DNA of 64,000 nucleotides from NCBI GenBank assembly GCA_027475525.1, contig JAMWFC010000055.1, forward strand, positions 662,212 through 726,211, read 5' to 3'. Every line of letters starts with the position of its first letter. Position 1 is the first letter of the stretch. Source of the stretch: Macrolepiota albuminosa. Its lineage: Eukaryota; Basidiomycota; Agaricomycetes; Agaricales; Agaricaceae. Below are positions 2,015 through 59,338 of this stretch, piece after piece. Both the position numbers and the translations under genes were made by a program. The notes beneath the pieces were generated by a model. That model was not told the origin of the DNA, ran no database searches, and saw only the letters and a list, made by a program, of their open reading frames with translations.

Positions 2015-2372
2015 GTGTGCTCAGCTGTTAAGTCCAGGAAAAATCTCATAGCTACATATAATGTATTTCAAGCGTTCCTTGTAGTTTTTGAGAGAGATAA
2101 TTGAGAACTAAAAATGTGGTAGGCGCAAGAGTGCAAAATCAGAGGGAGGTTTGTCACTAACCGGAGCTCGGTCAAGTGAATCAAGATTGACTGTGAAAAA
2201 TCTAACTACACAAAATGTTTCCATACATATCAAATGGCTTGGAATTCACATTCCGAAGTATATTGGGGAGTAGAAAGCTCAGAGGAAGAGACATTCTTCA
2301 GGTCGATGAAAGAGAGTGTGACAGCTTGGGGGCAGTTGAAGTTCCGCATACGGCTGGAACGGCATAGTCAAA
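2015..2372. other. Intergenic, GH16 to SAP-like relic
   Basis: Carries the 3' flank of the GH16 gene. No supported gene, tRNA or repeat was recognised. Confidence 0.5.
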
Positions 2373-30354: not shown

Positions 30355-32130
30355 ATGTTGTTCTACTATAATCTTTGCCTGCTTTCCGTTCTGTCTACGG
30401 TGGTGGCTCTCCCTAGTTCAGTGGATAAGAGAGCCCAGTGTCAAACTACTCTGGATAACGCTTTGGTACGCTGTCAGTATTATCCAGAGATCCCTTGGTA
30501 AAGCAACTTTGTAGTCTGTGGCTTCAACGTTGCAAAGCACTTACTTCGATAGCGGAACTGGTCAATACAACGGTGGATCACTCTGGACTGATGCGGTAAT
30601 TTACATGGTCTGTTTCATGGTCTTGATGTTTGATCGCCCCATAGAATACCCTTGAAGACCTTCACAACCTGATGCTCGCAACGGGAACAGATCAATTCTC
30701 AATTGTCGCTGACACTTCCTTTATTGGCAGATCAGCATTAAACAACAACACCAATTGGCAAAGCATACTGGCAGGAAGTAACGATGATGCCGGAGTACTG
30801 GTGTTATTTTCCATCCTGCTATCATTGTCTTATGTGTCTATTCAGTGGATCGTATTGGCTTTGTGGAAGATTGCTGATTATAAAAACAATCGAGGCCAGG
30901 AGTCCGACGCATACCTCGTGAGATTCGCCCGTGAGAGGAGGAGCCAACACTAATCAATGAACGATTTTCAGGACAGTGCCAATAAAATATATAACATTAT
31001 TGCCGCACAATGGGACGAAACATGCGGTGGTGGAGGTAAAGTTATTTCTGCATAAACCCCTCGCGATAAATCGTCGTCCTTTGAATCTCTAGTCTGGTGG
31101 TCAACCGCCCACACATACAAAAACGCGATTACCAATGAACTCTTCCTTCGACTCTCAGCTGAGGGCTATCTCAGGAGTGGCATACAAACATATCTCGACA
31201 ATGCACTAAAGGTTCGTCTCGTTTTTGTTTTTTTAATTTCATAACTGTCATGAATCAACTTTATCAAAAGACATGGTCTTGGCGTAGGATTTAGGATGCT
31301 TGTCCCCGTTTGCATGAGGCTGATATTGGTTTCCAGTTAGCGGAAGTGGAATGCGTAATTCCGAAAATCTATGGAACGACGGACTCAACTTCGATAATTG
31401 CCAAAATAACGGACAGGTAAGCGAGTTGCATCTATATACATTTGTTCTGCCTTAGAAATGTCGTGATTTAGACTACTTGGACCTACAATCAAGTGAGAAA
31501 TCCAGGAAAAACACTGGCCGTCTCATTCAGTAAACATCATATAGGGTGTCATCGCATCCGGTTTAGGAGCACTTTTTGCTGCTACCGGTAATTCGTCCCT
31601 TTTAACGCAGGCGGAACTCACACTCGACGCCACAATTACTCACCTTTCTACCAACAACATCCTCAGAGAGTCTTGCGACGATGCTGTGACTGGAGGACCG
31701 ATATGTAACCAAGACCAAGTATACATTTCTTTAAACGCTTACGGAGGTCTTATTCTCAACTGTTCTGTCATAGCAAATCTTCAAGGTAATTTCACGACGT
31801 TACTCTCGAGTTTTCTCGGTCAAAAGAATTCTGATTGCAGGGAATATGGACGAAACATCTTCAGTTCTACCTTGATTATGCTAACGATCCTGCTCGCGTA
31901 GCGAAGTACAACAGTTGGCTTGGTTCACAGACCTCGGCGGTCTTTCATTTTGGGACCAATGCTAACAACATTGTGGGATCTGTGTGGTATGCACCGGATC
32001 AAGTAAGTAAACCAACCTATACATGGGCCTTCTATCTGATCATGAGAAGGGAGGATCAATTTTCACTCCGAAGACAGACGCCAGTGGGCTTGCGGCACAC
32101 ATTGCAGCAGCCAAATACGGACCATGCTGA
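30355..32130 (+). CDS. Glycoside hydrolase family 76 (alpha-1,6-mannanase type)
   Basis: Secreted enzyme of the family that contains endo-alpha-1,6-mannanases and the yeast wall proteins Dfg5/Dcw1. Signal peptide MLFYYNLCLLSVLSTVVALP is followed by a KR site. The catalytic pair of adjacent Asp residues is present in GSNDDAGW, created by splicing GGA to TGG. Other landmarks are YNGGSLWTDANTLEDLHNLM, WWSTAHTYKNAITNELF, WNDGLNFDNCQNNGQ and YNQGVIASGLGALF. About ten introns are present, and one exon is only 12 nt (31774-31785, encoding QIFK). The protein ends AAAKYGPC with no GPI signal, so it is probably soluble rather than a Dfg5-type anchored enzyme. The last coding segment and stop sit inside the first copy of a 77-bp duplication. 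Confidence 0.87.
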
Positions 32131-32210
32131 CAACAATTTTCACTCCGAAGACAGACGCCAGTGGGCTTGCGGCACACATTGCAGCAGCCAAATACGGACC
32201 ATGCTGACAA
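32057..32210. repeat. Perfect 77-bp tandem duplication no. 1
   Basis: Copies 32057-32133 and 32134-32210 are identical and adjacent. They contain the last codons and the stop of the GH76 gene. Removing one copy leaves that gene unchanged. Confidence 0.97.
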
Positions 32211-32376
32211 AGTTTCGTAGCAGAACGCGGACATGTTGTAGGGTATCATTATGTCTCCAAGGTTTCCTGAACCACAGATGAAAGATAAGAACAAATACAG
32301 AGAAACTTGTACAGATAATCCTAAAAAGCACGGAAGAGAGAGGAGAAGCATAAGCACATACACTAACAGATAGAAA

Positions 32377-35300
32377 CTAGACCTCCGTTCTTTTATCTTC
32401 TGCTGTTTCTTTACGATGTAGTTGGGTGTCAAACCGTTGTGAAGGTTCTGGTGTCAAAGGTTCTGTTTCTTCACGAATGGTATCTCCCTCTGGTCTTCTC
32501 CACCTCCCTTTCATGACTACGGACGGTGCGTCCACAGCAGTTCCATTCAATGCTCTTTCCAAAGCTGTGTGTATCATATCATACCTCGTGAGATGGTTTC
32601 AAGCGGGAAAACATGAATGAACCAACTCACCTTTCTCTCCCCTTTTCTTGAGCCGTAATGACATTGCCCCTTGTAAGGAATCGATATAAGACTCATACTT
32701 GACGATCTCGGTCAGCAACCACTGGCTCTTCTTCTCCCAGTTCGACTGAGCCTTGATTGCATTCGGTGTCCTAGGCTGATACTGTATCATCTCGGGTGAG
32801 CCAATGATTATGGAAAAAGCGATTGTATACATACCAAGGCTGTCATAGGCTCACGCAAGTCATTATGTTTCTCCAGGTCCTTTTTCATGCTCAAAACATG
32901 TTTCTTGAGGGCCTCGAGTTGCGTTTCTTCGTCGTGGACGCTGGACACGATCGGGGGAAGTGGAGTCTTCCAGTCATAGACCGTTGTTTTCTCGCCCCAA
33001 GGGGAGTGCATTGCTCGAATCGTCGCTGATCCATCCCTCCATCCACCAAATTTACTGCGAGTACTACGTCCACTTTTGACGCTCATGGCATCTGTATAGT
33101 CCTTGACAGACTCAGTTTCTGGCTGACAGCGGCCATTATGGAGGGTGTCGAACACCCGATTCCAGCCATACTCCATGTTTGAAACACCTCCAGCTAGCGG
33201 TTCTTTACTCGTTCGCGCAGCCCAGTAGTTGCAGGTTGAGACCCATTCGTTAACCAACTCTTCAGTGCCTGCCTGGAAGAAATAGACTGCACCGTTTGCC
33301 ATAGTAAGGACCATGCAATAGGGTCGTTGCCGGTTATATCCCGGTGGCGGAAGAGAATGAGCCAAGGAATGGGCAAGATGAACTTGACCAACTGATTGAG
33401 CATTAGCCTAGAACACTGATAATAAGTGGCATGCAATAAGGAAATAATATCGACTTACAAGCCAGTTACCGCCTCCAAAGGTACCAGTGGCGCTGCCGGA
33501 ATGGTCACCAAATGTGAACATGTTCAATTCACCCTTCTGAATGACAACAAAAACATCCATCCAAGATTTGTCACGCGCCCGCTTTCCAATAGACTCCCAA
33601 TACTGCTTCCTGCAAAGTATTCCTTCCTTAGCCCAGGGAGCTCCTAGAAGGGCTAGCTCCTCGTCACTGATGCTAATCGTAGTATCGTCGGTCGCGTCGC
33701 TACGAATACTCCGGTCGTCGTCTTCCTGGGCTTCGCGTATAATAGTGTGCGACAAATTCGAGGCGAAACCCAGGGTAGGGGTGAGGAAGGAAGAGCTCGA
33801 ATTATACATAGCCTTCACATGATTAAGTTTATCAATATAAGCGAATATAAGACGTTCGGAATCATACCTCATGGGTAGACGTAGCAAAGCTCGGCGAGGG
33901 GCTCACACGGCCATCAATGCTGCTATTGCTACTAAAGGGGCTAGCACCTTGGGCGACGAGAATGGACTGCAGTCCACGTATACTGCCTCGCTTTAATGTC
34001 GTCAATCTATCCGGCTGACCGCGCAAGCTGCGATTACGCATCACCATTGCCCCTGTATTTAAGTTTGTCGCAGAGTGAGGAACACTAGATGTGAGGGGTT
34101 GTAATATCTGCTGGCTCTTAATGGCGTTGTACATTTCCTAGTAGAGAACCTTTGAGAACAAACTATTCCGTTTGTGACGTTGCACAAAACTCACCTTCAG
34201 AAGACTCTCCATGTCAGTTTCCCATCCCCGACCAAGAGCAGCATTAAGTGTTGTTCGAGGTTCGTGGGCGTTAGATACTTGCACCGATGGTGTGCTGCCG
34301 TTCGCTTCCTTCTGAAGGGCCATCACGCCTTCTCTGGACACACTATTCCAACTCGTTATGCTATCGCTCCGCTTCGGACGAATGTGAAGTTCAGTTCCAT
34401 CCTGAGGTCCACGAACGTTGCCACAGTCGTCGTACGCGAGATCTGACACCGAAAGGTTAGTTGGAGGAGTCGGTTGAAGTGACATTTGTATGGCATTGAG
34501 AGTGTTGCGAACAAACTGGTTACGGGACATTCGTGTTGTTAGATCAGCGACATGAAGATCAGTATTGAGAAGGAGAAGGGAGTACGCGACAGAATGAACA
34601 ATGTCTTGAAAATGTGTTAGTAGAAGGACAATTGACGACTCGAGATGTCTTACTAGCGCTGCCATAGACGCCACCTGGATTACAATCCCAGTAGCGACGG
34701 CTGAATTCCTGAAGGATGCGGTCTACTTGTTGTGTCTCAGCTTTGAGATAGAGCTTAGAGCAAAGGCGACTGGAACACTCTTGAGGTATGAGTAATAAAA
34801 CTAACGTCGTAACTCACCGAAAAGCCATGTCCAGTCTCAAGCCAGCGAAGTCAAAGAAGTTCACATAATGGCGAAGCGCTGTTTTATTGATACGGCCGCT
34901 GCGGCACGAGTAAGCAATTTTCCCCCTTTGAGAGACGATGCTGTAACGCACTGTCCACCAAGCCACTCTGCAATCTTTTCCTTCGCCAAGAAATCTTCTT
35001 CCTCTTCCCAACATCGAGAGGCAAGCTCCTTCCCACGGGCCTCCATCTCGACACAGTCCTCGGATGGATTGATAGAATGAGAGGCAGAGGATTGTGCTGC
35101 AGAAGAGAGACGAGACAAAGTCAGATCGTTTATTGATAAGTCCTGTTGTGAGCCTCTGCGAGAAGGCACTATTGAAGGAGAGTTTGGTCAATAAAGCACA
35201 AGTCGTAGAGTAGTAGGCCTCACAAGCATGTGTCCCCTCCCCATTCGGGATGAGTGAGGGCTCCGAACTGGATGCTACCGAACGATGAAGCGTCCGGAGC

Positions 35301-37082
35301 CGAGCAGTATCTCGAGCACTGCCAGAGGATGGGCTGGGGATAGGCCCGTTCCTTGATCGTAGTGGGCTTGAGGCATGCCTCGAGGTACTGTATGGCGATC
35401 CTATCATAGAGGTAGGACGCGCAGTCGGGCGTGGCATATGAAGGGAGGTAGTGCGCGGAGGAACAATGGGGGAAGACGTTGAATCTCTCTTGGGAGAGTC
35501 AGTCTCAAGTTGATGAGATGGTATCTGGAGCATCAACATGGGCGTTGTCGGTATGGGCACTGAGTTCGACTTCCTGATCTCTAAGCGGACATCGGAAGGC
35601 GGATGAAGGCCTTCAGTAACTGATCGGACAGTAATTTTGCGAGCGGGAGTAGAGGGATCTTGAAGATTTAAAGTATCATACACCGAGTCTAGTTGAGAAA
35701 GTTAACTTTTGAGTTGTCAAAGATCCCGGTAAAATTTATGTCACCTGTACGTGACCCTGAAGGTTTGTGTTCTGGAGTTGCTACTGTTTGAGGTGATGTG
35801 GCTGCCATCATATCCCTTTTGACTTCTTTCTCACAGATGCTCCTGCTCCGCCGCTTTCTGACTTTGTCGGCATTTGCCAGATCAGGGTCTGGTGCCGTAT
35901 CCTCGCTGAGAATTGTACGCTCAACGAACACGATAGATCGCTCGTCTGGATCATCATTCTCTTTCATACTCGCGATTACTTCTGACAAAGGTTTAGACGT
36001 GTCTGGTGGGCGCAGGACATTTGAACTGGTAAAGATGTCCGCTATGGGTGACCCCACGGGAGTGCGTTGCTGATGTTCTAAAGGTATAGGTGGCACAGGT
36101 GGGGCAAAGGCGTCAAAGAGTGAGGGTGTCTCGAAATGGGGTGTTATATGTGTTGACAGGGACGCATCAGTTTTCTGTTGGTAATCAAAATTTCAGTGAC
36201 AGAGGGCAGATATCAAGTGTTTCCCATACGGATCGCTCCCGTTGCGTGCCACTACTCTGCCCCATCAGTTTTCCCAAAAAGGCACTTGTTTTCGCCCTAA
36301 CTGAAGACTTAGACGCCTGTTGATCATCAATGTCGTGCCGGACAACCCATAATAGACAGATTACACACTCTGATCGTCCCATGCTCCTTTGAACGAGGAC
36401 TTTGAAGCATCCAATCTGAACCAATTTCATGTTTCGGAGATTTGTATTTCGTTTTCGTAAGTTGTGTCGACTGAGGAGTCGAGGGGTTGGATGATACTAT
36501 TGTTGACGATCGCTGTCGCCCACTAGTAGATGGTCGTTCAATCGGCAAAGGTGGAGGCGAAGACTCGTGTCGATTCTCCTTATGTTGTGCATCAACGCCT
36601 CCCTTTGCTCTGCGTAAAAGAGTTGCTAGGTCAGGGCTGCTGGACGTGCCTGGGGACCGGTACATGGAACGGCGATTAGTCTGTCGTTCTGTAGTGGTTG
36701 TTGTCGTATCTTCGGCATCGTAGTACATGTCTTGGGAAGAGGATGATTGGGATGAAGAACCTCCATTTTGAGTCGGCGAAGGTACAGGAGCTGAAGCTGG
36801 AGTTGGTGGAACGACAGTTGGTGTTCCCGGCTGTTGCTTTCGAGGAGTGTGTTGGCGCGGAGTGGGAGAAGCAAAATTCGCGTTCCTCGCAGCGTCTACA
36901 CCAAGCGAGTTGACGTCCAGCCCTTCTTTAAGCAGGACTGTGCCGTTTCCGAGCAAAGCTCGCTCGAAATCAATGTCAGTACGTGACACCCGACGATTCA
37001 GTGGTTTGTTTCCACTTATATCCTTGGAGGCAACGGGCTCGAGTCCATTCGGGAACGTGGTAGATGGCTGTGGAGATCGCAT
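32377..37082 (-). CDS. Arf-type GTPase exchange factor, Sec7 plus PH domains
   Basis: Guanine-nucleotide exchange factor for Arf/Arl GTPases in Golgi or plasma-membrane traffic. The long N-terminal half is disordered and Ser/Pro-rich (37.1-35.2 kb). The Sec7 domain spans roughly 35.06-34.49 kb: LAKEKIAEWLGG, YVNFFDFAGLRLDMAFR, the glutamate-finger region LKAETQQVDRILQEFSRRYW, and SVAYSLLLLNTDLHV. A PH domain follows at roughly 33.65-33.20 kb (WMDVFVVIQKGELNMFTFG, then VYFFQAGTEELVNEWVSTCN), then a helical region (EALKKHVLSMKKDLEKHND). This order matches fungal Syt1/Sec74 and animal EFA6/PSD proteins. The stop is at 32377-32379. The ATG at 37082 (MRSPQPSTTF) is the first true Met; an upstream exon is possible. 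The catalytic Glu is retained, so it should be active. Confidence 0.87.
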
Positions 37083-37370
37083 AGCAGCGACATTCTGACG
37101 GAATACAGACGCCAGGACGGGCAAACGACGTAGAGATCAGGTCTAAACCAGAAGCGCCAATATTTCTCACATACATATAAACACATCAAAAATAGTCTAT
37201 AATCATTGGAGCTGGATTCCACCATGGGTTAACCACTAATATACAGCTCGTAACACAGTCAGAGATATAAGTGCGTCATCGTCGTGAACAATTAAAACAT
37301 GAAAAGTGATACAGCAGTTCGGCGTTATATATTTGCGCACCAAAGATCAGTGCGCACCGATCAAACTGTC

Positions 37371-40300
37371 TTATGAGTCTGTTTGCAATCCGGTTGAAGT
37401 CCGCCGCTGTCGCTTCATAGCCATCGTGCCAGAAGTCGCAGCCACCGTCGCACTAGCCCGAGCTACGAGATTCGGACCCCTTCCTACACCAGCGAGCAGA
37501 GAGCCTGATTGTGAACGAGGCCTGGAAGTCGATGAAGCGATCTTCGGAAGGGAAGATTTCCGCGAGTTACTTTGCGCACCCGACGCTCTATTCCTAATTG
37601 AACCAAGCATCAGAATGATTGGCACAAGGCAGGGACTAGGTACGAACCGCTTCTTAATAACGTCGGTCTTAAGAGATAAAGGACGAACAACCCCATGTAG
37701 TTTCTATAAATCACATCAATCAATATATCTGAATATCTGGATTATGACGTATAGTACTCACGAAGAACAAACCACAGGCATTGCCTGAGAAAACCAAAAG
37801 ATAAGCCACGAATTCTCACTCAAAAAGGATAAAGAGTAACGCACACAACGGCTGACCTTCTGGATCTCTCCTCCACAATGGCGTATTCGTCGTTTGGCAA
37901 TTGGTACACGACGTTTGGGATTGCTCCCCTTCATCACTCGCACCCTTCTCCCCACTTGTAATATCAGGTGTGCTGGATGACGACCGAAGCTCTCCTGGTG
38001 AATTGGCATTGGCTATAGGCAACGAAGTTTGCTTTTGGATGGTTTCTGGCTTCAAAGGTATGTACTTTCTTCCATTGGCTGTCCTCGTCGTGTGGACAGA
38101 TGAACTAGGTGCACCCTCGGCGGACGGTGGTGTAGACGCGTTTGATATGTTGTGGGGCTCAGGCGACGCATCTGCACTCGATCCCGTACCATTGCCCCGG
38201 CCATCGCTTGAAGGACTGGCATGAAAATGGGTGAATCCACCAACAACACTTGTGCTGCCGCTAGTATTGCCAGGACCCCGTACTATACCACCGTTATCAA
38301 TCTGACCTGCAAGAATCTGAGCGGGGTCGACGTGGGTAAATGGATTCCTGGCATCGAGCCCAGAGTACATCAAACCGAATAGTTGCCCGTAGTCAAAGAG
38401 TCCTTCGTCCATGCCCGCCAGATTTGGAACACTCAGAGAACCATATCCCTCCACAATGGCTGCGCTAGCTGCCGCTGCAGCAACTGACAAGCCCTCATTT
38501 GGTTGGGGAATCGTATCCGGTGAAGGGTATGTCTGGTTGCTGATCGGAGACTGTCCAGAAGACTGCTGCCGTGAATGTGAACGATAGGGGTTGAAGTCAG
38601 GCTGCCTTACCACAGATGAAGAAGGCAACGTCGATGGAAGAGAAAACAAGCTCTCATGGGAAGGGAAGGAGAAGTTAAAAGTTCCAGAAGGGAAAGAGCT
38701 TCGACTCCCATCTATCTGTTCAGTATGTAAAAGAGACGAAACATCGCTGCCACTGACGATAGAAGGGTCAGCGCGTAGCATGCTCTCCAAGTGTGGGGTC
38801 TCGGCACGTCGTTTCTGGCCCACAAGGTTCTCAGGTGGCAACGGCTTGCCATTCACCTGGTGCCGTCCACTTAAACCAGCCATAATACCTTCCCTGGAAA
38901 CAGTGTGATCGAAGCTAGTCTTGCGAACGTGTCGAGGAAACGATCGCTCTTCAACCGGAGGTCCATGGCCGTGCGGTGCCGAGGGTATCCTTGATAGGCC
39001 GTGCAAACCAGTGGAAGGAAGAGAGGCAGGTGCAAAGACAGGACTATCAATGGCGGCGAAAGTAGGGTTAAAGTTAGAGGCATTCAAGAACCGCACTTCA
39101 GAAAACGAGTGGCCGATTTCTGCCTGGTCTTCAAACACGGATGGTAGTTCAGATGCGTGGTTCAAGGCAGACGATGGACTGCGTCGGCTGTAGGTCAAAG
39201 ACAACATCGACGGGCCTGTGACACTCCCGGGTATAGGTATGCTAGGAGACGTTGACAATGTGGCTTTTGAAGCGCCCTTAGCATAGCTTACATTGTCGGG
39301 TAACTTCAGGCCATTATCAATATTGGGAAACGTATAACGTGCATCGTATGGCGCCATATTGAGTAATCCATGCTGATCAAATGTCTGCCCAGTTTCAGGT
39401 GGGCGGGATCTCGATCGGCTTGCTGGGCGCCAGTCCATCGATATCCTCGATCTTGACCTACTCAATGCCCGCCAATCCATAGGCACAACACTGGAGGATA
39501 TAGCTAAAGAAAGATCGAAAGGCGAAGGGGACGATGAAAGACGCACTCGGAATCATCAAAACCATCTTGATTCGTGCCATCGAACCCGACAACTCGCACC
39601 CTCGCTTTACCCTTGTCGATCCGTCGACCCCGCTCATCAGATTGCCTCGAGCTTTCTAGTTCCGCTGTTTGCGCTTGTTCATCTTTAATGACAGCCTGAG
39701 TAGCCACATCGTGGCTTGAGGCACTTTCTCGTTCCTTTACAGTAGCTTCATCATCTTCGCCCTTTTTCCTCTTCAACGCCAATGCCATCATACGCCAAGT
39801 CAAGTTCTCCATCCGTTGTGCATGAGGCAAAGTAGCCTTCGTTCGTGCATACATTTTCCACACTTGTGTTGCTAGTGGGTCTTCTTTTGCAAGCTGTGTT
39901 GGGTCAGGCTCGATCTCTTTCGTATGTAACATAGGGGAGCCGATAATTCTGGGTGATGTAAAGGGACTAGTGGCTCGTGGAGATAAAGGGCTTCCCGTCG
40001 AAGCAAACAATTCTTCTGAGAAGATGTCTGTGAGCAAGGTCGATTTCGAGGCGAGACTAGGGGACTTTGATGACACGGGTGATCGCTCGTAAGGACTCCT
40101 GTCGGACGGAAGCTCGGGCTCTGGGAGAATGGCAGACGGGTCATCGTTGAGCCCATATGCTGAAGGAGAAGGAACAGAGGTAAAGGCAGGGGACATCCAT
40201 AGTGATGGTGGTAGGCGAGGATTTAAACGCTCACCTGTTGGCGGATGAACGTGGGTTCCAGGTATATTATCATGTGATTGCTGGTCGAGGGAGCTGAGCG

Positions 40301-40979: not shown

Positions 40980-43295
40980 GAGTTGATGTTGAAATGACAC
41001 CTGGTCGACCCCTAGAAGATAGATATACGACTTCTACAATGAAGAAGCCAGAAGAAAAGCGGCTGAAGATGGCCTATAGACTTCTAGACTTTGAAATGGC
41101 TTGCAAATGTGCAGGCTTGGGGGGAGAAGAACTCGGCGTGAATACGGACTCTACAACAAATCTCCGGTCCGCCTCAGAAAACACCTGTCACGGATTCGTC
41201 ACATCAGCTTGGCCTGGTGTCTCGGGTCCCGATGTCGATGAGAACGGTTATGATCATCGCACGCCTAAGGTTCTATTGTTGCTTTACTATAAAGGTCATC
41301 GTGCTTGGTGTCCTTGTGGTCCCGATGCCTGATTTTCGCTTGCTCTTTAAAGTCGATAGAGAGTAGTATAATGGATTGCAAACTCGTTCTGCTAGTCTAC
41401 AAAAATTTAGCCTTGACTACATTTCTCGTGTGCTGTGCCATGCTGGTCTACGTTCAAACTAGATTCTGTAGTCTACCTTCGAACGACTCGTCCTTTTTTT
41501 TTCTACGTGGAGCAAGCTGGTTCCACTATGTCCGGCAACGCCTTCTGTCAGGTTCTTATGGACTGAAGGTATTTGCGATCCTCACACTCTTTGACTGAAC
41601 TCTATAAAATGCCGAAAAGCCGATGGTCAGAAGTACCTGACCATGATTCGAACGCTTCTTTGTGATTCTGCAATTCTTTCAAAACGTCTCATCCTCGCAT
41701 GTGGGTCCTGACGAAATGGAAATACAGTTACCGGTCGATTAGACCGTACCTAAGCGTGATGCGATAAGATTAGCTTAGATCGAGTGTAGAGAGAAACTCG
41801 GTGTATCTGTGGTATTTCCAGATGTCTATCTAATACATCTGGAGAATGCTTAAATACTGTAGTAAGTGGCTGTGTATATGGATAAAAATTATATAGCAGC
41901 TGACCTACTAACGAACCAACGGTGATTGCGCAATACTGACGAGATATGTTGGAGCTACTTCGTCATATTACTTTCGTCAGGTCCTTATGCATTTTGAGGT
42001 GTCCAAAACCACATAAAGCTGCAAAATATAAAACAGATATCTACATGCATAGGTGGCGCCCAGAGATAGAACAGGTCCCAAAGGCTCCGCAACAGCGTTG
42101 AAATTAGGTTCAAGTAATGATGAGGCAGGGTGGCGCCCAGAGATAGAACAGGTCCCAAAGGCTCCGCAACAGCGTTGAAATTAGGTTCAAGTAATGATGA
42201 GGCAGGAAAAGTCGCTTTCTGAGACCCTCAATTCTTAGTTCACAGTTACACACGCCACGGAAAACTCTGCGAGGAAAGTTCTAGTATAAAACACTAAAAA
42301 TCAAGCATACCACGACAACGGACAACACTTTATATAGCAGGCATAGAGTACAAACCCTACTTTACCCCCGCCTCTTAGCCCTGTAGTGCGGCTTGCCGAC
42401 GGAATAAACAGATTTCTTCTTCTTCTTAGTTCACAGTCAAAGGAAACTTCCGTATATTTTCCAGGACTGGATCAGCCGAACGAAGGATTCAGTTTCCTAG
42501 CCTTACAATCCAGCAAGAAATACATATCGAAGTCCACGGAGGTGAGAAGTCTTAATATAACCTGCCTTTCAAATCCATGCGTCCACATGCGCAGGTACTA
42601 ATTCCGTTAATAAGCTCGCCTTGAGCTTTCCATCACCCCTATGGCGAGGGCGTTGCTTGTGGGACACTGTTAGGTTCAACCAAAAACCGCTATCCTTCTC
42701 AGACTTAACTTTATCGACTATCTCTGGGATGTTATCTGTGAACGATTGCATACATAGCCCTTGTCTGAAATGAAATCGCATATAAAAACCTCTCTTTCTT
42801 GATCTCGCCCCCAACCATCCCTTCGCGCTATCGTCTTCAGCTCATAACAGTGATTGACAGTGGTGTAATTCGTGAGTGAGAAGTCTTTGACTCATTCGGG
42901 CTGGCGACAATGGCCTTGTGACCCTAACTATCCACCTTGACGTTGGCTGGCGATGCAAGCACACGGACCCACGACACTGTTAACTTACGCGAGGGAAAAA
43001 GTCGGATTTATATGACCAAGCTTGTTGATTGAGGACCTTGATGTTTCGTAGTTGCTGCGACAAGATGAGTATGTTCAACAATTTCTTCCGAAGAAAGAAC
43101 ACAATATTCGTCTAATATTGCTCAAAGCTGAATAGTGACGAGAAATCAAAGTGCAGCCTATAGCGATCCGTGGTGAAGCCTTGTGAACATGTATATCATT
43201 TTTGAATGGCATACATGGGTGATAATTATATCCAGAGAGAGGGATCGAGATTTTTTTTAAAAAAAAAGAGGTATCGAAAGATATGATGTACGATA
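40980..43295. other. Long intergenic region upstream of the GATA factor
   Basis: About 2.3 kb with no supported gene. The first part is the 5' flank of the GATA-factor gene and may include leader introns. It holds one 77-bp duplication (42052-42205). The GATA-factor promoter is expected here; I did not identify a defined regulatory site. The last 500 bp are 3' flank of the signal peptide peptidase gene. Confidence 0.45.
42052..42205. repeat. Perfect 77-bp tandem duplication no. 2
   Basis: Copies 42052-42128 and 42129-42205 are identical; one further base matches by chance. Non-coding surroundings. Confidence 0.97.
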
Positions 43296-46168: not shown

Positions 46169-48522
46169 TCAATAGCCTGCGGCAATCCCGTTCTTTCTAG
46201 AGTCACTGGCAGCTGTGCCATAGATGGGTCTTTGTTAAGCTGTGAAAGAATACTATCCAACATACCATAAATTTTGCCATCGATTTTTCCAACAGCTTGA
46301 ACAACACCTGCGACTCTATTCACGTCAAGCACTACGGAAGAATGAAATTAGTTGCCCAAAGCTTCAGAAAAATACAACAAACAGACCAGTGACGTTGTGT
46401 CCAATGGCGCGCAATCCATCAACTATTTCTTGAGGATAGACATTATCCACATCCATAGTAAGCGGGTATAACTGATCATGTACTCGCCCGTACTCTATTG
46501 CGGCACTTAAGTTGAGCCCTAATTCAAGGTTGAAAAGGACCTGAAATATTGCTGGAAAGATGCGGGAACCACCAGAACCACCAAGAGCAAGATAGAATGA
46601 ACCGTCTTTATCTTCAACTATGATTGGCGCTATCGATGACAACGGACGTTTGCCGGGTGCAGGGTAATTGACTAGAAGCCAAGTCAAAACAGATCAACAA
46701 CAAAAAAATATAACATCAATTTTACATGGTGAGGGCCATAGTCCGAAACCGTTGGCAATGCCCGGCGTAGAAAAGTCATCCATCTCATCGTTCAAGAGAA
46801 TACCTGTCTCAGGGTCAAGAACTTGCGATCCAAAAACTAAATTGACGGTTGACGTGATTGCAACTGCCATGCCGTCCTTGTCTACGACCGAAGTATGGCA
46901 CTGATGACCAGAGTGAGAAACTACACAAGCATCATACTTATGAACCTCTTACTGTACCGTGATCGGGTTTTATGTCATACTCAGCATTGTAGTAATCAGG
47001 AGGATGTGTACGATCCTGTATAGTATGCTTCATATATGACGATAAATAGAAAAATAGCCTACTTACGTCAGTAATATTGCGAAGAACAGATGTCGCAAAT
47101 TCCTTTGTAGATATGATGTCCATTCGTGCGGTACTGTTATTGAAGTCAGGATCACAAATCTTGGTCCTCAAAGACAAGGTATGTCAGATTATTGATTTGT
47201 AGGAGGGGGCCAACTTTACCGAGATGCAAAGCCAAATTTGATAAATTCCACAAGACGATGAATACTTAACACATTTCGTTCCTTGACATCGAAATGTTCA
47301 AGCAAATTCAAGAGATGGATCAAGACTTCGTAAGTAACAAAGTAAGACCTCCACTGATGAAGAAAGACGACGATTGGCTCACCCGGTCCAGATGTGGGTG
47401 GGTGGGTTGTATAGACCTTCCTGTCGCGATACGTGCTTTCAAGTGCAGGTTGAACTTTCACAGAATAGTTTCCCAGATCCGTATGGGACATGATGCCACC
47501 AGTGGCTCGAATCTTGCGAATCAAAGCATCTCCAATGGGTCCCTAAAATGGATGAGAGGCTTAATCATTGAGCCTAAGTAGCTTTACCTTGTAAAAGGCG
47601 CTTGACCCTTCTTTTGCAATCGCTTGAAGGGTTCGTGCAAGGTTTGTTCGCCGAATGGTTTCGCCTTCGCGCAGGAGAACACCACGAGGAGCGAATATTT
47701 CTTTGAAGTCAGGATTATTAAGCATGAGTTTTGAGTACCACTTGAGTGACAGACAGAGATTAGTGCGCCATATTTCCGAATGAAAAAGAAGTATTGAGAG
47801 CTTACAGGTATCCGCTTCCCTAGTTCTCTGTCAACTTCCCATCCTTGTGCTAAATCGATGGACGGTTGTATCAACCTTTGCCATGAAACTTTCCCCCATC
47901 TGCGATGCGCTTCTTCGAGTCCAAGTACTTCCCCAGGAACAGCAACCGATAAACCACCATACTTTGACAGACTGGGGGAGTTTTTAAACATTGTGGCATT
48001 GGCTAAGGCGGGTGCGACTTCGCGAAAATCAATAGTGAAGACTTCTGAAGGTTGTCCTACAGTAGGGGACGGAATGCGTACTAGCATGAAACCTCCACCA
48101 CCAATCCCCGAACTAAAGATGGTACGTGGATGGTTACGAGAAACAAACGCAATGACTTACGAGAACATATTAACGACACCTGCACAGAATGTAGCGCTGA
48201 TGGCAGCATCAACAGCATTTCCACCATCACGCAATACCCGTACCCCAATGTCTGAGCAACGTTTGTTCTCAGCAGCGACAGCACCATGCTCAGCTTGTAT
48301 GAGATAAGCCGGGTTTAGATAACCCATACGATGCCATTCGATGTCAGAGGATCTTTGTTTGCGACCTAGATTAGGGGGAAACGCAATCCACACGCACAAA
48401 CTGATAAGTCCCACAAAAATAAACTTCCATCGGGTACAAGGCGAATGCTTCAGCCTCTCGTTGGCATATGTCGGCAAGAGGGAGTCGAAGGACTCTACAG
48501 GTAAATGTTTCCTAATGCCCAT
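46169..48522 (-). CDS. Gamma-glutamyltranspeptidase
   Basis: Self-processing enzyme that removes the gamma-glutamyl group from glutathione at the vacuole or cell surface. A single N-terminal anchor (about residues 33-50, [15 protein letters not shown]) predicts a type II membrane protein. Large-subunit landmarks include [33 protein letters not shown] and [13 protein letters not shown]. The catalytic Thr is in [14 protein letters not shown]; its codon (46953-46955) is the last before a 52-bp intron. [20 protein letters not shown] and [18 protein letters not shown] follow, and the protein ends [14 protein letters not shown]. The start ATG is at 48522 ([10 protein letters not shown]). A 77-bp duplication begins 43 bp upstream of the start, so the promoter crosses a probable contig join. 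Confidence 0.88.
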
Positions 48523-48564
48523 AGGACTGTTTGGTGGGTGCGCGGAGTTTGGATCCTCTTATGC

Positions 48565-48718
48565 TAGGTGTCCTCTAGATAAGAAATAGGATGGAGTTTG
48601 AACACCTAACATAATTTCTAATTCAGGACAGCACGAGCTGTTAGGTGTCCTCTAGATAAGAAATAGGATGGAGTTTGAACACCTAACATAATTTCTAATT
48701 CAGGACAGCACGAGCTGT
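48565..48718. repeat. Perfect 77-bp tandem duplication no. 3
   Basis: Copies 48565-48641 and 48642-48718 are identical and adjacent, just upstream of the gamma-glutamyltranspeptidase start codon. Confidence 0.97.
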
Positions 48719-49696: not shown

Positions 49697-49850
49697 TCCG
49701 GCCTAGATAGGTGCCGAATGAATGTAACTACGGGCTTGTGCCGATTTAGTACCTCCCAGATGGGCCGTCAAAATCCGGCCTAGATAGGTGCCGAATGAAT
49801 GTAACTACGGGCTTGTGCCGATTTAGTACCTCCCAGATGGGCCGTCAAAA
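49697..49850. repeat. Perfect 77-bp tandem duplication no. 4
   Basis: Copies 49697-49773 and 49774-49850 are identical and adjacent, in apparently non-coding DNA. Confidence 0.97.
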
Positions 49851-49963
49851 GACTGTCGCGGACCAAAACCGTCAGTTGACATCACGTGCCAATTTACCCG
49901 CGAGTCTTTGGAAGAGGTCCATATCTAGTTGTCCTTCACTTGCCACCCCCGGCAGCCCACACT

Positions 49964-52116
49964 ATGACAACAAACGCCCGTCGTTTCTCACAGATCCAAG
50001 ATGATCTGTCGGAAGCGTCGATTGCTGGTGTTTTTGCCAAGAGTAGGTGCCGGTAAGTCTTGTGGATAAAGAGTCTATGTCAGAGTGCGTTGTAGTGATA
50101 GAATCGAGCAGGTCGAGCACAGGCAGCATAGAAGGTATATAGCAGATTAACTCTCGGCTTACGGAGTTTTAGACGAATTATTGTAGATGGTACTCGCGAA
50201 CCTAAGCGGCGTAGGACAAGTGGGATCAACGCTCGGTTTGACAACATGATCTACTCCATGGACGTTACATATCCTGGTTCACAAAGCTTACGACAAACAC
50301 GTACAAGGAGTTCCTCAGACGCGTCGCACCTCTCTTCTGCTATTGCCGATGCATATAGTGATCTCCACGAAGGACGCATCGGGGAGAACTTTACTCTCGT
50401 AAAAATGCAACCATTGGCGGACTCTTTTGCAAGATCCATGCAAACTAGAAATCCCAGCGGGAAATCACAAAATCGTTCTCAAATTGTATGTAGACCCCTG
50501 GCATTTTTCGTCCATTGAAGTGGTTTTTCCTTTCAGACTCCCTCTGTCTGTAAAGATCTGCCTGAGTGGCTTCGATCAACATTCTCAAGCCTCCCGGAAA
50601 AACATCCTCTGCGATTACTCTTACCAAAGGAGTCGCACTGTCCACAAAATGACGCAAATGACCATACTCCAGATGACTCTAAGATTGAACCTACCTTTGC
50701 TTCTGGTCTAGATCATACTACTCAAACTAGGCCGAATAATTTGCAAACAGTCAATTTTATTGGATCAACGGACAACCATTCATTTTGTTTTGTTCCGCGA
50801 TCTCCGACTTCGTTGGGTGCCTACTCCTCGGATTCCAAGGCCAACGTTCAACAATTTCAATCTCTTTCTGTGGCCTGTGGTGACCCTATGCCTCTGACGC
50901 GCAATGATGTGTCATTCTCAACGTCTAGACCTAACAATGTCTCTGTGGACCAGCTACCTGTGCCTTTCAAAATGAATGAAGTCAATGAGAGAGATCCAAA
51001 CCTAGCTTCTGAATTCAAGGGCCTCGCTTTCACTCCATTTTCCACCCCTGGACCAGCGTCTACATTAGGATCATATGTTGCTACTAATTCTCTCCCTCCT
51101 ATATTAAACTCTCATGCCACAGATTGCCTTGTGAATACGGATGTCGAGACTTCTGCTTGCTTTCCTCGTCATCTGACCACCTTTCCCATCTCTCATTCTA
51201 GACGTGCCTTATCTGAATCATCCGCAATTGATTCTTGCTTGCCTCCTTACTGCGCTGTATCCTCTGATCCAGCTCCTGCTTATTCCTCTGACGATCATCC
51301 GCAATTGATTCTTGCTTGCCTCCTTACTGCGCTGTATCCTCTGATCCAGCTCCTGCTTATTCCTCTGACGTATCTACGATGGTGCCTACTATGCAGACCC
51401 CTCTAGAGATGAATCTGGCTCAGAACCGCGAGGACTTTCTCTGTGTACTGATGACGACTTCGCCACTCCCGGCCTAGGGCATTGCGCCCCTCGACCGATA
51501 TTTCCTGAGTCGCTTACTCAAGAGCAGTCTGATCCGGATGATTCAACACCAGGTTGTGATATTGACCTCGATGGCATTGACTTCAAATGGACCCCTTTTA
51601 ATAGAAAGTTAGACGAAGAAAAGAAACTTGATGAATGTCGGTCGGAATTACGCAACAATCTCAGCCCTGAGTCCTCCGAGTTAGGGACAACTTGCATTGT
51701 CAAATCCCGAGCTGGATCTCCCAAAGTCACACCACTGCCTGATTCCTTGACTTCTCCGAGCCCTTTCCGATTCACTCCCCCTCGACTCACAACGAATACA
51801 AACTCAACCTTTGATCACGCAGAACCTCGGACACCGCAAACAATCAAGCAAGACCAGCCTTTCGCTCCTGCCCCTGGAATCTACGTTTCACCTCTTCGCG
51901 ATCAACTACAGGCCCAGACTTCAGTTCTTGTACGTGTCGCCATCATGGTTCTTGTCTATTTTTGACGGCTCGATGTATCAGAAGAACCCTCATAATCAAC
52001 TCATCAGTACTGAACCACGGAAAGCGGACCTCAATGTTGAGACCGAATTTCCCAGTTCACAAGGTTCTCTTGATAGCATCCAGTCTTGGCGGGATGCAGA
52101 TGAGGATTGTCCGTAA
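49964..52116 (+). CDS. Unknown Ser/Pro/Asp-rich protein, frame disturbed at a 77-bp duplication
   Basis: Starts MTTNARRFSQIQDDLSEASI. Exons chain in frame through RIIVDGTREPKRRRTSGINA (a possible nuclear signal) and SAIADAYSDLHEGRIGENFT, then TPSVCKDLPEWLRSTFSSLP, then a long polar region to about 51.29 kb. Duplication no. 5 then interrupts it. Downstream, a clearly protein-like frame resumes at about 51375 (DGAYYADPSRDESGSEPRGL) and runs past IDFKWTPFNRKLDEEKKLDE and APAPGIYVSPLRDQL. Removing one copy does not by itself join these two frames, so a small error or missing bases at the join is likely. No domain is recognised. The 3' end is uncertain: the frame stops at 52116, but further exons up to about 52.4 kb are possible. 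Confidence 0.6.
51217..51370. repeat. Perfect 77-bp tandem duplication no. 5 (inside a gene)
   Basis: Copies 51217-51293 and 51294-51370 are identical and adjacent, inside coding sequence. As 77 is not a multiple of three it shifts the frame. Confidence 0.97.
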
Positions 52117-52573
52117 GAAATTTTGGTGCATACGTGTTATTGCTACATGGATGCTTGAACGTATCATAATGACTGGTTAAAACAAAGGATCACAACGAGT
52201 TTCTGGTGATAAGATTCTAGAAGTGGGTGGTAATTCAAGTCCTGAAATCAGAAATGATTCAGTCGTTTCAAAAAGCAAAAATACCTTGGAGAATGAATCA
52301 GTAAGTACCGCTTAAGGAGATTCAACAGTCCACACGTACAGACAGATAATGACGCCACATTTCGTCACCACTTCTCAGTAAAAAAAATCAATGAAATTAA
52401 GAGAGTTTTCATATTCAACAATCATATTATAGTTGGTTCGTTGGATTTACCGGCGCGGTCCACATATTATTCGGGCAGCAATTATATAATTTGTGTAAAA
52501 TACTGGATCCGATGCAGATATCTATAGCAAGGATAGCAAGACGATAGATGAACACTATTCTACCGAACAGAAT

Positions 52574-53408: not shown

Positions 53409-53796
53409 GATTGATATAAACGACGGGCAGAACGAGAAGGCCAAAGCACGGCACCAATGATCACGAAACAGTAAGTTTTAGTTTCTGGGTATAGCAATCA
53501 TATAAGACCATGATTGCGCCATTTGTTGCATTCGACGCATTCAAATGGCGATCGCGCCTCGGCTACAAATTTTCTTGAAAGAATGGTTTTTGAGATTTTC
53601 GCCAAAGTAAACATTACCGTATTCACACGCTGTAAAAGACCTGTAAAATGATCAAGATTCCCAGTTTACATTTTGCTCGGGACGAGAGTAGTGATATAAG
53701 ATGATTGCAGATGCATCAATTAGTTTGGTTAGGCCGGATTTGGCCGACAAACATGAAACAAATAAAATTAAGTCCTCACTGTTCTCATCGTCCACC

Positions 53797-54476
53797 ATGG
53801 CGAGTAAGAAAGCGGCAGAATCAACACTCTATCATCTCAGCCCGCAAGGTTTCTGGAAGAAATTTCGTGAGTTTCTGCTCCTTATTCAGCTCTTTATGCT
53901 CAAAAGTCAGTCCAGGTGATGCCGTGGTCGTAAACCCGGAAATATCTTCTGGCCTTCCAATAGCCAGCCTCCATCGACGACCACCCCCCGGATCGAGACC
54001 AGAGAGGTACAATACACCTGCCACGAAAGGTGCCTTTTGATGTTTTCTTTTTTGCTTTGCAATGCTCAAAAGTCATGTAGCGTCCGATCCCGCTCAGAAC
54101 CCATATTGGAAACGTGACGTTCGACGGGCATACCCTCAACTCTCTGTTATTACTCAGGGAGAGCTATCATCTTTGTTGATTGAACATTCTACACCTCAGT
54201 CGTATGTGCCACTTTCACTCCATCGACTAATGGATATCTAAACATCCCTTCAGCGTTGCTGCACCTGGCGAGGTAAAATCTGACGTCCCGGCTGCTTCCA
54301 AAGCACCAGTCGATTTAACAGAAGCTATTGCATCTATAACAACTGCACAAAAAGTCTACTCCGAATCACGATTGCCTCCCTCCCTTCCAGTGCCTAACAA
54401 ACGTTGGATTCCTGAACGTGCTCCCGATGCACCGCACGACCCTCATTCTTACTTCCCTATGCATTTGTACAAATAG
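53797..54476 (+). CDS. Complex I accessory subunit (21.3 kDa / NUZM-like)
   Basis: Accessory subunit of mitochondrial NADH:ubiquinone oxidoreductase. Exons 53797-53866, 53916-54029, 54081-54201 and 54254-54476 give 528 nt and 175 residues. The pattern matches the Neurospora 21.3 kDa subunit: MASKKAAESTLYHLSPQGFW, VVNPEISSGLPIASLHRRPP, NPYWKRDVRRAYPQLSVITQ and a C-terminus with LPPSLPVPNKRW. No cleavable presequence is obvious, as usual for this subunit. The assignment rests on the NPYWKRDxRRAYPQLSVxxQ block, which I consider specific. Exon boundaries are all GT-AG and in frame. Confidence 0.82.
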
Positions 54477-54905
54477 CCGATCGGGAAAAGGGCAAGAATG
54501 ATCGTCATTGTGTTTCCACTCTGTACTCAACCTATTGATTCGGTATCTCCTAGAGTAAGTTCAGAGCCGTGATGTCTTTACTTTTTAGCAATTGTCATTG
54601 CTATTCATTTAGTAAACTTGTGTAAGAAAAGATTCTAAGGCTATACTAGCGAGAAGTTTCCCCGAGTCGAGACTAAGGATCGTATATATGTAATTGAACA
54701 ACATATAGTCACCTATTCCTGATAATCAATTGTTTCCTGAGATATAGCAATGTAAGGTAGTGAGGATTGAGATATAGTTTTGTACAGATCATAGCCATTT
54801 GAAAGCAGTTTCCACATAAAACTAGAAGGAAAAAAGAACCAAGAAGTTTCGTATCAATTAATCGTGGATGGGACGGTTCACATCGTGATCTGAATATGTC
54901 GCGTT
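54477..54905. other. Convergent 3' intergenic region
   Basis: About 430 bp between the stops of the complex I subunit gene and the Chk2-like kinase gene. AT-rich; no gene was recognised. Confidence 0.35.
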
Positions 54906-56795
54906 TCATTGCCTAGTAAGTATGTTGTCGCTGGAGTTATAAACAGGTGTATAGTTCGCAAACCATGGATGATCAAGAGCATTTGTGAGCGCCATGCGTC
55001 GTCTAGGGTCAACCTTCAACAGAAGTCGAATAAACCGGATTGCTAAAAGTGTATCAGACTGTGGGAAGATCCGATGTTAGGTTACGAACCTGTCAACAGA
55101 AGTCGAATAAACCGGATTGCTAAAAGTGTATCAGACTGTGGGAAGATCCGATGTTAGGTTACGAACCTGTGGACGACGGGTCCCTACAATCGAGACGTTC
55201 CCAGTCAATTTTAGGGATTTGAGTGCCGGAACCTTGTTGTCGTCCTGGATGAAAGGACTGCGTGATGTAAGCCTGGAACATATGGAGATCAATTGATCCC
55301 TTGAAATTTCTTGGTGAAGCATACATCTTAAAAACAATGACCCCGACGCTCCAGCTATCCACGAGGTTATCATAACCTTCCGAATTCTCTGGACCACCGA
55401 TTTCAGGAGCTTGAAATCCAAGAGAACCGCACCAGGTCTGGGAAAAAAAGCTGAATTGATGGCATCATCACTCAAAACGCAGAGTTTACCCTCAACATGG
55501 TCTGACTATGGACAAACTTGGCAAGACCAAAGTCAGCCACCTTGACGATGTGGGGCCTCTTTTTCGTGAGTAAAATATTCTGATGGCAGCATCAATAAGT
55601 GGTGATTCAGAAACTGTGCAGGCGCGTACCTGAGGCTTGAGATCGCGATGTGTGATATTTTTCGAATGTATGTACTTTGAATCATTAGCAGTGAAGCATT
55701 ATGAAACGATCAGAAACCCTACTGCAAGTGCATCACAGATTTGATAAGTAAAATGCTGAGATTCAACTTCACCTTGAAGCACGCCATTAGATGAATGTCA
55801 AAAGGAAAATGTCCACCACACGAACTGAGTGGGGAATTTTGGCGGAGATAAGCAGAAAAATCTCCACCATCCACGAGTTCTAGGATTAAATCTTGGGAAA
55901 TATCAGTAGGGCCATCGCCTGAGAAAACAGATATGTACAAATATTGTCAGATTCGTTCTCCCCGAAAAAGGCGTCCTTCAGCTCGCAGATATTTTTGTGC
56001 TCGAGCATCCGTAAGACCCCGACTTCTCTGCGAAAGTAATGGCTTCGAGGATGTGAATTTGGGTTACGAAGAGTCTTGGCGTCCTTCAATATTTTCACGG
56101 CAACATGTTCGCCAGTGGCGTGGCAAACTGCTTCCTTGACAACTCCATATGAGCCCCTTCCGAGGTCTCGTAATAAATCATATTGGGTCTCAAAGGTAGT
56201 CATCGGCGATTTCGCAACATGACGATAGGTAAACCCTTCGAACAGGTCAGTGGGGGTGGAGGATGATCTATAATGTACACACTGATATCTCCGTGGACGG
56301 GGTTTTGTGTCTTGGAAGTACACAATAAAAGTTCGCTTCCATGGCGAAGCACAGCCGTATTACCCTGGCCGATCCTGACGCCGTTTATCTGAGGAGTTGA
56401 GAACGGAGAAAGGAAGAAGAATATGAAAAGGCAACCTACAAAGGTGCCATTTCGCGATTCATCGAGAACTGTGACGCTGGAATTCTGATAGGACCCGTCC
56501 CAAGTGATGACGCAGTGCCTGCCACCTATGCAAAAATGAGCCCAAACACGCTAAAAAGGCAAGAAACATTGTACTGACTGATTCTGATCCCGGGCAGTAT
56601 GAAATCATTGGTATCGAGACGGCCCAATTCATAGCGATTTTTATCGAGAGAGAAGCTAATTCTGGAGACATCTGTACTGCATGGCTCCAAGTAGCCCCAT
56701 ACATTATCAAAAACCTCGTCCGATTCTTGTTGAGACGTTTGTTGTGTCGATTGAGTGTATTGTTGGAACGATTGCGAATCTTGATTATCTTCCAT
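54906..56795 (-). CDS. cds1: DNA-damage checkpoint kinase, Chk2/Cds1/Rad53-like (FHA plus kinase)
   Basis: Effector kinase of the ATR/ATM pathway. The N-terminus MEDNQDSQSFQQYTQSTQQT contains two SQ and two TQ sites within about 25 residues (SCD, target of ATM/ATR kinases). The FHA domain follows: RYELGRLDTNDFILPGIRIS, GRHCVITWDGS and LDESRNGTF, then INGVRIGQGNTAVLRHGSEL. The kinase domain has the glycine loop LGRGSYGVV, VAVKILKD, catalytic ITHRDLKPQN, VADFGLAK, and the CGSLGFQAPE activation segment. It ends FIRLLLKVDPRRRMALTNAL, DHPWFANY and NILTRQ at a TGA at 54906-54908. Duplication no. 6 (55017-55170) spans an intron and the start of the last exon; with one copy removed the kinase end reads cleanly. 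ATG 56795 is the first true Met. A single FHA domain suggests the Cds1/Chk2 type rather than two-FHA Rad53. Confidence 0.9.
55017..55170. repeat. Perfect 77-bp tandem duplication no. 6 (inside Chk2-like gene)
   Basis: Copies 55017-55093 and 55094-55170 are identical and adjacent. They contain the last intron and the first codons of the final exon of the kinase gene. Confidence 0.97.
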
Positions 56796-57575
56796 GGGGT
56801 AGTCTGGACAGTCCAACGTTGAAAGGCGAAGTACACGCAGAATCGTATAAAGCTTTCACCAACGGAAAGTCAAGCGATTCTTGAAGGTGTAGAGAGCTAA
56901 AGACTCTTGATTGGAATTATGATGGCTGGGGGAGTAAAGTGAATGTGAAGTCGGTCGATCTTTTCAGGTCATAAAATATAAAGGCCACCATTTTGGCGAG
57001 AAACACACTTGTAACATGCGGCGATACAGCACGTGCATGCGTAATGGTCTTTGTGTATTTCCTTGTCATGGAGATGTCGATAAGGGACTACCAGAAATGT
57101 GAAAGAATGGTTTGTTCAGTGAAGTTGCCGCATAAGAAGGTTGTTTGGTATTGGTTAAAAGTACAGGCGCGAGACCAAGATCTTATGAAACGAATTCTTG
57201 CAAGCTGACCATTGCAGCCGTGTGTTATTGTACTACGCATGCATTTTCTTGACTTAAGGGCTCGGTCAATTTCCATGACGTGCCGAGGTCTTTGGCCTTC
57301 TCGATGCTTTGTTAGGGATGCTTGAAAAGGCGCTTGTACTCGTGCTCCGTTGAAGGACCTTGGGTCGGACCTATTGGGAGTATTCGCGCAGTATCGAGCC
57401 CACAAAGCTTCATGACACCATTAGAGATCATGAAATCCAACCTTGAGTGGTTGAGCAGGAAACAAATCGACTATTGTTGCAATGCGACGTTAACCAAACA
57501 ACGCCTTTACTAAATTAAGGGACAAGAGACCACGTGCGGCCCTGAGCCGACGTTTCAACACACATAAACACAAGA
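56796..57575. promoter_or_regulatory. Divergent promoter, Chk2-like kinase / Tat-SF1-like gene
   Basis: About 780 bp between two start codons. Short open frames on both strands overlap and carry no features. No distinct element was recognised. Confidence 0.35.
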
Positions 57576-59170
57576 ATGTCTGTTGTACCACCCTCTCCTC
57601 CGCCCGGAGCATCTGCAGGAGTCCAGGCTGCAGCCTTTGCCAACGATGAAAGGTTTAAATGCATCATGTCTGCATATCGTGTCTTATCACACTAATACAC
57701 CTTCAGAATCTATTTCTCAAAAGAAGCCAACGCGTGGAGACTCGAGCAAGAGGATGGTCCAGAGCTAGAGTATGATGCTACCAAAGGAGCATGGGTGCCC
57801 TTGGTATGTTCCGGATATCAATCTTCAGCATGACACGCTTACAACTGACAGGTCGACGAAGACCTCGTCAAACGACAACAAGCTGCATATGCTGTTGAAG
57901 GAGTCGACGAGGAGGTAATATTTGTATCATCTCTAGTATGTTTTCAATTAAGCAAAATTCGTAATGCTACAGACTCCGGCTGCTCCGGTTCTAGCTCGAG
58001 AAAATAAAAAACGAAAAGATTTTGAAGACAGTATATCTCAATCTGAACTGTCCATTAAACGCGGAAAAGTTGGTAAAAAGGAACGACCGCCTGCAGAACG
58101 CAAGTCAAAGAATACAGCTGTATATGTCACTGGCCTTCCCTCCGACACAGAGCTGGATGAGATTGTCGAGCGGTTCTCTAAGTGCGGCGTCATTGAGGAA
58201 GATGAGGAGGGCGAGCCCAAAGTAAAGATGTACGCGAAAGACGACGGAACATTCAGCGGAGAGGCCCTTGTGGTATTTTTCAAGGAAGATTCCGTTCTAT
58301 TGGCGCTCAGCATCCTTGACGAAGCGGAACTGCGAATTGGCGACTTGTCTTCAGTGATGTCGCTCTCCAAAGCCGATTTCACACACAAGGAAACAACAGG
58401 AGGGGCTGAGGAGGCAAAGCCACGTAAAACTCTTGACAAAAAGAGAATCACGCGGCGAATTGGGAAGATGCAGAAGTGCGTGTCACATTATTTCATGGGC
58501 GGTGTCCCTTTGACTGAATTCTTGACAGGAAAATTGATGAATGGAACGACGAAGATGGCTTTGGGCCTTCGATCTCGCCTGAAGAAAGTGCTGCATCTAT
58601 AGCGAATCAGAACAGCAGAGTCGTCGTCCTCAAACATATGTTTACGTTGGAGGAGCTCGCAAAGGATGCTACCTTGCTTCTTGACCTAAAGGAAGATGTA
58701 CGAGAAGAGTGTTCCATTTTGGGTGAAGTAACAAATGTTGTCTTGTATGATGTGAGTGGGCGTCGCGCTCGTCCCCCTTGATTACCCATTGAAACGTTGT
58801 GTGCAGAAGGAAGAGGATGGAGTAATGACCGTCAAATTTCGAGATCCTATCAGTGCAATTACCCATTGAAACGTTGTGTGCAGAAGGAAGAGGATGGAGT
58901 AATGACCGTCAAATTTCGAGATCCTATCAGTGCAAGGCTTGCTTATTGGTACGTCTCGGGAGGGTACCATTGACGTCGCTTACGGGTCTTGTCCAGAAAA
59001 TGAACGGTCGGTATTTCGCTGGGCGTCGAATTGAAGCCTCTCTGTTTTCTGGCAGACAGAGATTCCAACGGAGTGGAGCAGGGGATGATGTCGAGGGTGA
59101 AGGAGAAGAAGGGGAGAAAAAACGTTTGGATGACTTCGCGCAATGGTTACTGACAGAGGGGGAAGAATAA
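57576..59170 (+). CDS. cus2: U2 snRNP-associated splicing factor, Tat-SF1/Cus2-like
   Basis: RNA-binding protein that helps U2 snRNP assemble on the branch site. Starts MSVVPPSPPPGASAGVQAAA. The first RRM is KNTAVYVTGLPSDTELDEIV through FSKCGVIEEDEEGEPKVKMY and GEALVVFFKEDSVLLALSIL. The link QKKIDEWNDEDGFGP is restored by an intron. The second RRM (U2AF-homology type) is NSRVVVLKHMFTLEELAKDA, EECSILGEVTNVVLYD and KFRDPISARLAYW, then LVQKMNGRYFAGRRIEASLF. The end is acidic (LDDFAQWLLTEGEE). Two 77-bp duplications (58781-58934 and 59098-59251) fall in the last exons. The first repeats an intron end plus KEEDGVMTVKFRDP codons; the second repeats the final codons and the stop. With single copies the protein reads through normally. 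Confidence 0.88.
58781..58934. repeat. Perfect 77-bp tandem duplication no. 7 (inside Tat-SF1-like gene)
   Basis: Copies 58781-58857 and 58858-58934 are identical and adjacent. They cover an intron acceptor and the following coding segment. Confidence 0.97.
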
Positions 59171-59251
59171 CTAATGAAGGAGAAGAAGGGGAGAAAAAAC
59201 GTTTGGATGACTTCGCGCAATGGTTACTGACAGAGGGGGAAGAATAACTAA
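59098..59251. repeat. Perfect 77-bp tandem duplication no. 8 (end of Tat-SF1-like gene)
   Basis: Copies 59098-59174 and 59175-59251 are identical and adjacent. The first contains the stop codon at 59168-59170; the second would be a non-coding echo. Confidence 0.97.
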
Positions 59252-59338
59252 TCATTATCAACTTTTAACTTTTAGGCCGGATGAATTGGCATGCTCTTGT
59301 ACAATATTATACTACAGTTGATAGCGGATAAATTTCTA

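Follow-up and report, generated by a model that had tools for sequence, protein, structure and literature searches.

Eight duplications of a single length

The window, a stretch of 64,000 nucleotides from Macrolepiota albuminosa without any N bases, holds an intact gene for a PPR protein, a gene for an HTATSF1/CUS2-like splicing factor, further open frames, and eight places at which a 77-bp segment is followed at once by an identical copy (Table 1). Relatives of the splicing factor carry the name 'Splicing factor U2AF-associated protein 2', and its gene shows 85-88% identity to four Termitomyces homologs. The best named relatives of the PPR gene are four Termitomyces proteins (71-77% identity), and by these comparisons the DNA is that of a Termitomyces, a genus of the Lyophyllaceae. 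Among the proteins compared with Pfam in two sets, one of five and four of ten were without a match, and a search of solved structures with a gene hit by a join gave no match.

Table 1. Joins and neighbouring genes, in window coordinates
Feature	Coordinates	Strand	Description
PPR gene	7770-9407		intact
Join 1	32057..32210		77-bp segment and identical copy, boundary 32133/32134; matched run 77
Join 2	42052..42206		77-bp segment and copy; matched run 78
Open frame adjoining join 3	48166-48558	-	gamma-glutamyltranspeptidase match; join just beyond it
Join 3	48565..48718		77-bp segment and copy; matched run 77
Join 4	49697..49850		77-bp segment and copy; matched run 77
Open frame cut by join 5	50741..51962	+	protein P0241 (382 aa) matches on either side
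Join 5	51217..51370		inside exon, 77-bp segment and copy; matched run 77; net excess over P0241 of 76 bases
Protein kinase C-terminal match beside join 6	54909-55076	-	weak, E 0.0047, under the Pfam cut-off
Join 6	55016..55170		77-bp segment and copy; matched run 78
Splicing factor gene (HTATSF1/CUS2-like, RRM)	57576..59244	+	cut by joins 7 and 8
Join 7	58781..58935		crosses a hand-assigned 3' splice site and the exon start; matched run 78; net excess of 76 against Termitomyces homologs
Join 8	59098..59252		covers the end of the join-7 gene, including its stop codon; matched run 78

An exact scan of the window for adjacent perfect repeats with periods of 10-2000 returned these eight, every one of period 77, and none of any other period. 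Tandem Repeats Finder reported the same eight sites (2.0-2.1 copies, 98-100% matches) together with two minor short arrays of periods 20 and 14. All eight perfect duplications listed in the initial annotation are therefore present; seven of its positions are unchanged, and the sixth moves from 55017 to 55016, one base to the left, where the register of the repeat is ambiguous. Its remark that no such case lies outside the span from 32 to 59.3 kb is correct within the window and fails as a wider limit, the absence being a local gap: the nearest further sites on the same contig lie at window-equivalent positions -2244 and 69773. At all sites the two copies touch with nothing between them, so that there is no flanked insert of the kind that marks a target-site duplication.

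Period 77 across the assembly

The window lies in a 3.2-Mb contig (C90) of an assembly of 100.1 Mb in 129 contigs. The sample used here comprises 340 kb, of which 264 kb come from C90 (the window plus 100 kb on either side) and 76 kb from 14 other contigs. In the C90 portion, scanned for periods of 10-3000, perfect adjacent duplications number 100 and are all of period 77, and of the 101 exact self-matches of at least 25 bases at offsets of 30-399, 100 lie at offset 77. Every one of these 100 is full length, without the variation in length and divergence that natural duplications would be expected to display. The other contigs contribute 16 more sites, on seven of the 14. Over the whole 340 kb, period 77 accounts for 116 of the 117 perfect adjacent duplications, the one constant length that an untrimmed k-mer join would leave, and the joins are common in the assembly as far as it was sampled. 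The sole exception, at C50 28530 (L033:3530), is a perfect duplication of period 31 with a run of 61, which may be an ordinary natural repeat.

The sites on C90 are clumped, with 0-9 per 10 kb and a variance-to-mean ratio of 2.7. Long join-free stretches at C90 562212-583165 and 660121-694267 stand beside others with up to 9 sites per 10 kb, a contrast for which heterozygosity, coverage or a different contig source may be responsible. The shortest spacing between C90 sites is 178 bases; when the sites are jittered by up to 3 kb, a mean of 9.8 spacings below 178 and 8.6 below 155 would be expected. A minimum spacing suits pieces of an assembly graph, and natural duplications would have no reason to observe one.

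The sequences themselves have little in common, as the initial annotation had held for the window: the 77-mer recurs exactly elsewhere in the 340-kb sample at just 2 of 116 sites. Identity between the copies continues beyond 77 bases by 0, 1, 2 and 3 or more bases at 67, 35, 6 and 8 sites, against chance expectations of 65.2, 32.6, 12.3 and 5.9 (p 0.25). Extension at the level of chance implies that the two ends, unrelated in other respects, have exactly 77 bases in common, and unrelated sites with chance-level extension are what an untrimmed k-mer join would produce. A 501-bp query taken at site 1, compared with the whole assembly as a check for allelic copies, matched in one place only. Extrapolated to 100 Mb from 100 sites in 264 kb of C90 and 16 in 76 kb elsewhere, a 340-kb basis in which C90 is over-represented, these counts correspond very roughly to 21,000-38,000 joins and some 1.6-2.9 Mb of false sequence.

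The base beside the second copy

Join 5 can be compared directly with another assembly, and it is the sole site in the window for which such a sequence was found (the seven others gave none). The protein P0241 (382 aa) bears the record tag 'lgn', which we take to denote the Logan assemblies of public read sets; the longest contig of its assembly has 19,249 bases. Its residues 1-184 agree with the window at 183 of 184 positions, the one difference being the start residue, and residues 186-382 are identical at 197 of 197 positions on the far side of the join. Since residues 160-184 are encoded by both copies in the window, P0241 holds the segment once. Residue 185 ends and residue 186 begins at base 51372, and the gene therefore exceeds the length of the window minus 77 by one base: a base is missing directly to the right of the second copy, and the net excess is 76. 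P0241 could come from a different strain. The PPR gene is 99% identical to another 'lgn'-tagged protein, P0001, with differences at 3 of 545 positions, one of them a missing residue, so that the other assembly may represent a different strain or allele.

A second case is join 7, where the Termitomyces homologs P0121 and P0122 have the duplicated stretch once; for their match to run on past the boundary, the window must gain one base there. An alternative splice choice at this join would keep the frame open but would drop residues that are present in both P0121 and P0122. Removing one copy thus fails to restore the true sequence at 51217 and 58781; it does restore it at L020:3585, L021:7503 and other sites, for which copies of repeats elsewhere in the assembly provide the comparison. 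These repeat copies carry the segment once where the joined copies have it twice. Length is unchanged at the boundary at L020:3585 (against a repeat copy of 99.5% identity), at L021:7503, at three C50 sites, and at L026:828, where the first base is substituted. At L023:3936 an exact 77 brings the frames on either side into agreement, and a Pif1 domain lies downstream. One base is missing relative to two of three close repeat copies at L021:6799, and again relative to two of three at L020:3766, there 3-4 bases past the boundary; L028:2347 has one extra base within a T run. The sites C90 562211+40425 and 562211+214974 (below 80% identity or matched on one side only) and L035:829 were left out as evidence. 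The C90 repeat at L020:3385-3938 and in L021 near 4331 and 6455, with copies 99.5% and 88-94% alike and about 10-13 kb apart, is likely a recent transposon family.

The relative frequency of the two kinds of join was estimated from codon usage, with a score trained on 123 long open frames of the same DNA and applied to 115 of the 116 sites, or 230 site-strands (one site too near the end of its stretch was dropped). A first version of the test, in which 11 of 14 cases favoured collapse by 77, was discarded, for both windows of comparison contained the same 77-mer and agreement was forced. Redone with windows outside the copies, the test gave frame offsets of 0, 1 and 2 at 4, 11 and 4 site-strands (120-base windows, most permissive limit); under its other settings the cases were evenly divided or not numerous enough for a judgement, and a stricter form, with 4 cases, had little power. 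A simple count of open frames scoring above 8, made without simulation over windows of 60, 75, 90 and 120 bases, found 18, 16, 20 and 13 of the 230 site-strands after removal of 77 bases, 11, 13, 15 and 15 after removal of 76, 7, 7, 6 and 6 after removal of 75, and 3, 1, 2 and 1 in the unaltered sequence. Removal of 77 and removal of 76 thus both exceed the background given by removal of 75, with the exact 77 ahead at windows of 60, 75 and 90 and the net 76 ahead only at 120.

When the best of five forms was chosen for each site, 39 of 115 sites passed: the form chosen was an exact 77 at 11, loss of one base from the right side at 15 and from the left side at 5, with the two-base forms taking 5 and 3. 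At individual sites the forms often differ by little, and at several they are nearly equal (17.0 against 16.2 at 51217, for example). With confusion rates taken from 2,500 simulated positions, the log-likelihood is -72.1 if all joins are exact, -67.7 if all have lost a base on the right, and -57.8 for a two-way mixture, in which 44% are exact (support 22-67%); a five-way mixture gives 32% exact and 50% lost on the right. Some joins have truly lost a base, and others are without such a loss. Joins with a net excess of 76 make up roughly half of all joins, a share that carries uncertainty because the simple count favours exact 77 at three of four windows.

Origin of the joins

Taken together, the fixed length of the repeats, their spread over the assembly, extension at the level of chance, the minimum spacing and the single copy at 51217 identify the sites as assembly joins. 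The reading that accounts for them best, to which we give a probability of roughly 0.95, is that the sites are false joins which the assembly process introduced between contigs of a k=77 graph, with the left 77-mer written twice and a base also lost at about half of the sites. The eight duplications of the window are a data-quality problem and no biological feature. A de Bruijn graph with k=77 is the most likely source, k having been read off the length of the repeat; 77 is a usual largest k of SPAdes. Contigs from such a short-read graph would be strung together by a step that outputs the complete left contig, repeats its last 77-mer, and continues with the right contig from base k+1. Where the true overlap is 77, this would leave 77 extra bases, and the assembly minus 77 would equal the true sequence. 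Where it is 76, the period would still be 77, the net excess would be 76, and the base to the right of the repeated k-mer would be lost. Behind the lost base there would then be either contigs that truly overlap by k-1 or a variant base at the branching k-mer, and we infer that a single software step made all joins. Counted against this explanation are the 5 of 39 classified sites whose best form has the base lost from the left side, and we know of no tool that predicts a mixture of exact-77 and net-76 joins.

Gap filling or polishing, in which the left anchor 77-mer was pasted between contigs that share no overlap and are either directly adjacent or separated by one base, would yield the same strings as an overlapping join and would account for one-sided losses of either no base or a single one (the side asymmetry is 15 against 5). 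It is a tentative possibility, however, as there is no independent sign of gap filling, and gaps of exactly 100 N persist at C90 613121 and 821391. The plain form of the assembly reading, in which contigs sharing a 77-mer were laid end to end with nothing else wrong and the missing bases are chance differences, draws support from the 11 of 39 classified sites at which an exact 77 is best, from the unchanged length at the repeat copies named above, and from the frames that agree across L023:3936. It is nevertheless improbable, given the base missing directly after the second copy at 51217 and 58781 and the better log-likelihood of the mixture over uniformly exact joins. The untrimmed-join hypothesis of the initial annotation is accordingly upheld for an assembly origin and for the constant 77, and gives way on simple end-to-end placement.

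A biological process that makes real tandem duplications of one fixed length would agree with repeats that are truly present in the assembly at constant length, yet the near-identical P0241 has the 51217 segment once, 116 sites show zero variation in length, extension is at the level of chance, sites keep a minimum spacing of 178, and frames break in a conserved splicing-factor gene, so that the probability of such a process is negligible. An unknown fungal enzyme making blunt tandem duplications, always exactly 77 bp long, at sites numbering in the tens of thousands, some with a one-sided loss of one base, is likewise of negligible probability.

Several known assembly artefacts resemble the joins in part. 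Adjacent pieces overlap by K in most de Bruijn assemblers (PMC7379835), and for a largest k-mer n, ends that overlap perfectly by n or n-1 are on record (PMC7111523). Such overlaps of k or k-1 between neighbouring contigs resemble the present sites in a length set by k, in the lack of sequence preference and in the single true copy (PMC7379835, PMC7111523), whereas here the overlap sits inside joined sequence as a tandem copy and a base is sometimes lost. A scaffolding gap placed by IDBA-UD or CLC despite overlapping flanks, as PMC7111523 describes it, also keeps an unmerged overlap twice, but with N between the copies, which here touch without N. SPAdes overlaps at the ends of contigs or circular replicons, mentioned in the Unicycler report (PMC5481147), are untrimmed assembler overlaps too, but they lie at contig ends, whereas the present joins are internal to a nuclear genome. 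Among the titles of the literature searched, none names a tandem k-mer join artefact.

As 77 is 2 and 76 is 1 modulo 3, either form of join within an exon breaks the reading frame. The view that each site marks a contig join, several of them within genes, is supported; in the window an open frame and the splicing factor gene are cut. Consequences extend to gene models, exon counts and pseudogene calls, and to tandem-repeat surveys and primer design that use this assembly. Because some joins lack a base, clipping one 77-mer per site fails to restore the genome, which has to be joined anew from the reads. Any assembly can be checked at little cost by scanning it for adjacent identical k-mers. 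The runs of exactly 100 N on C90 (in L007 and L021) are of the form that usually marks a scaffolding gap of unknown size, and they point to a separate layer of scaffolding.
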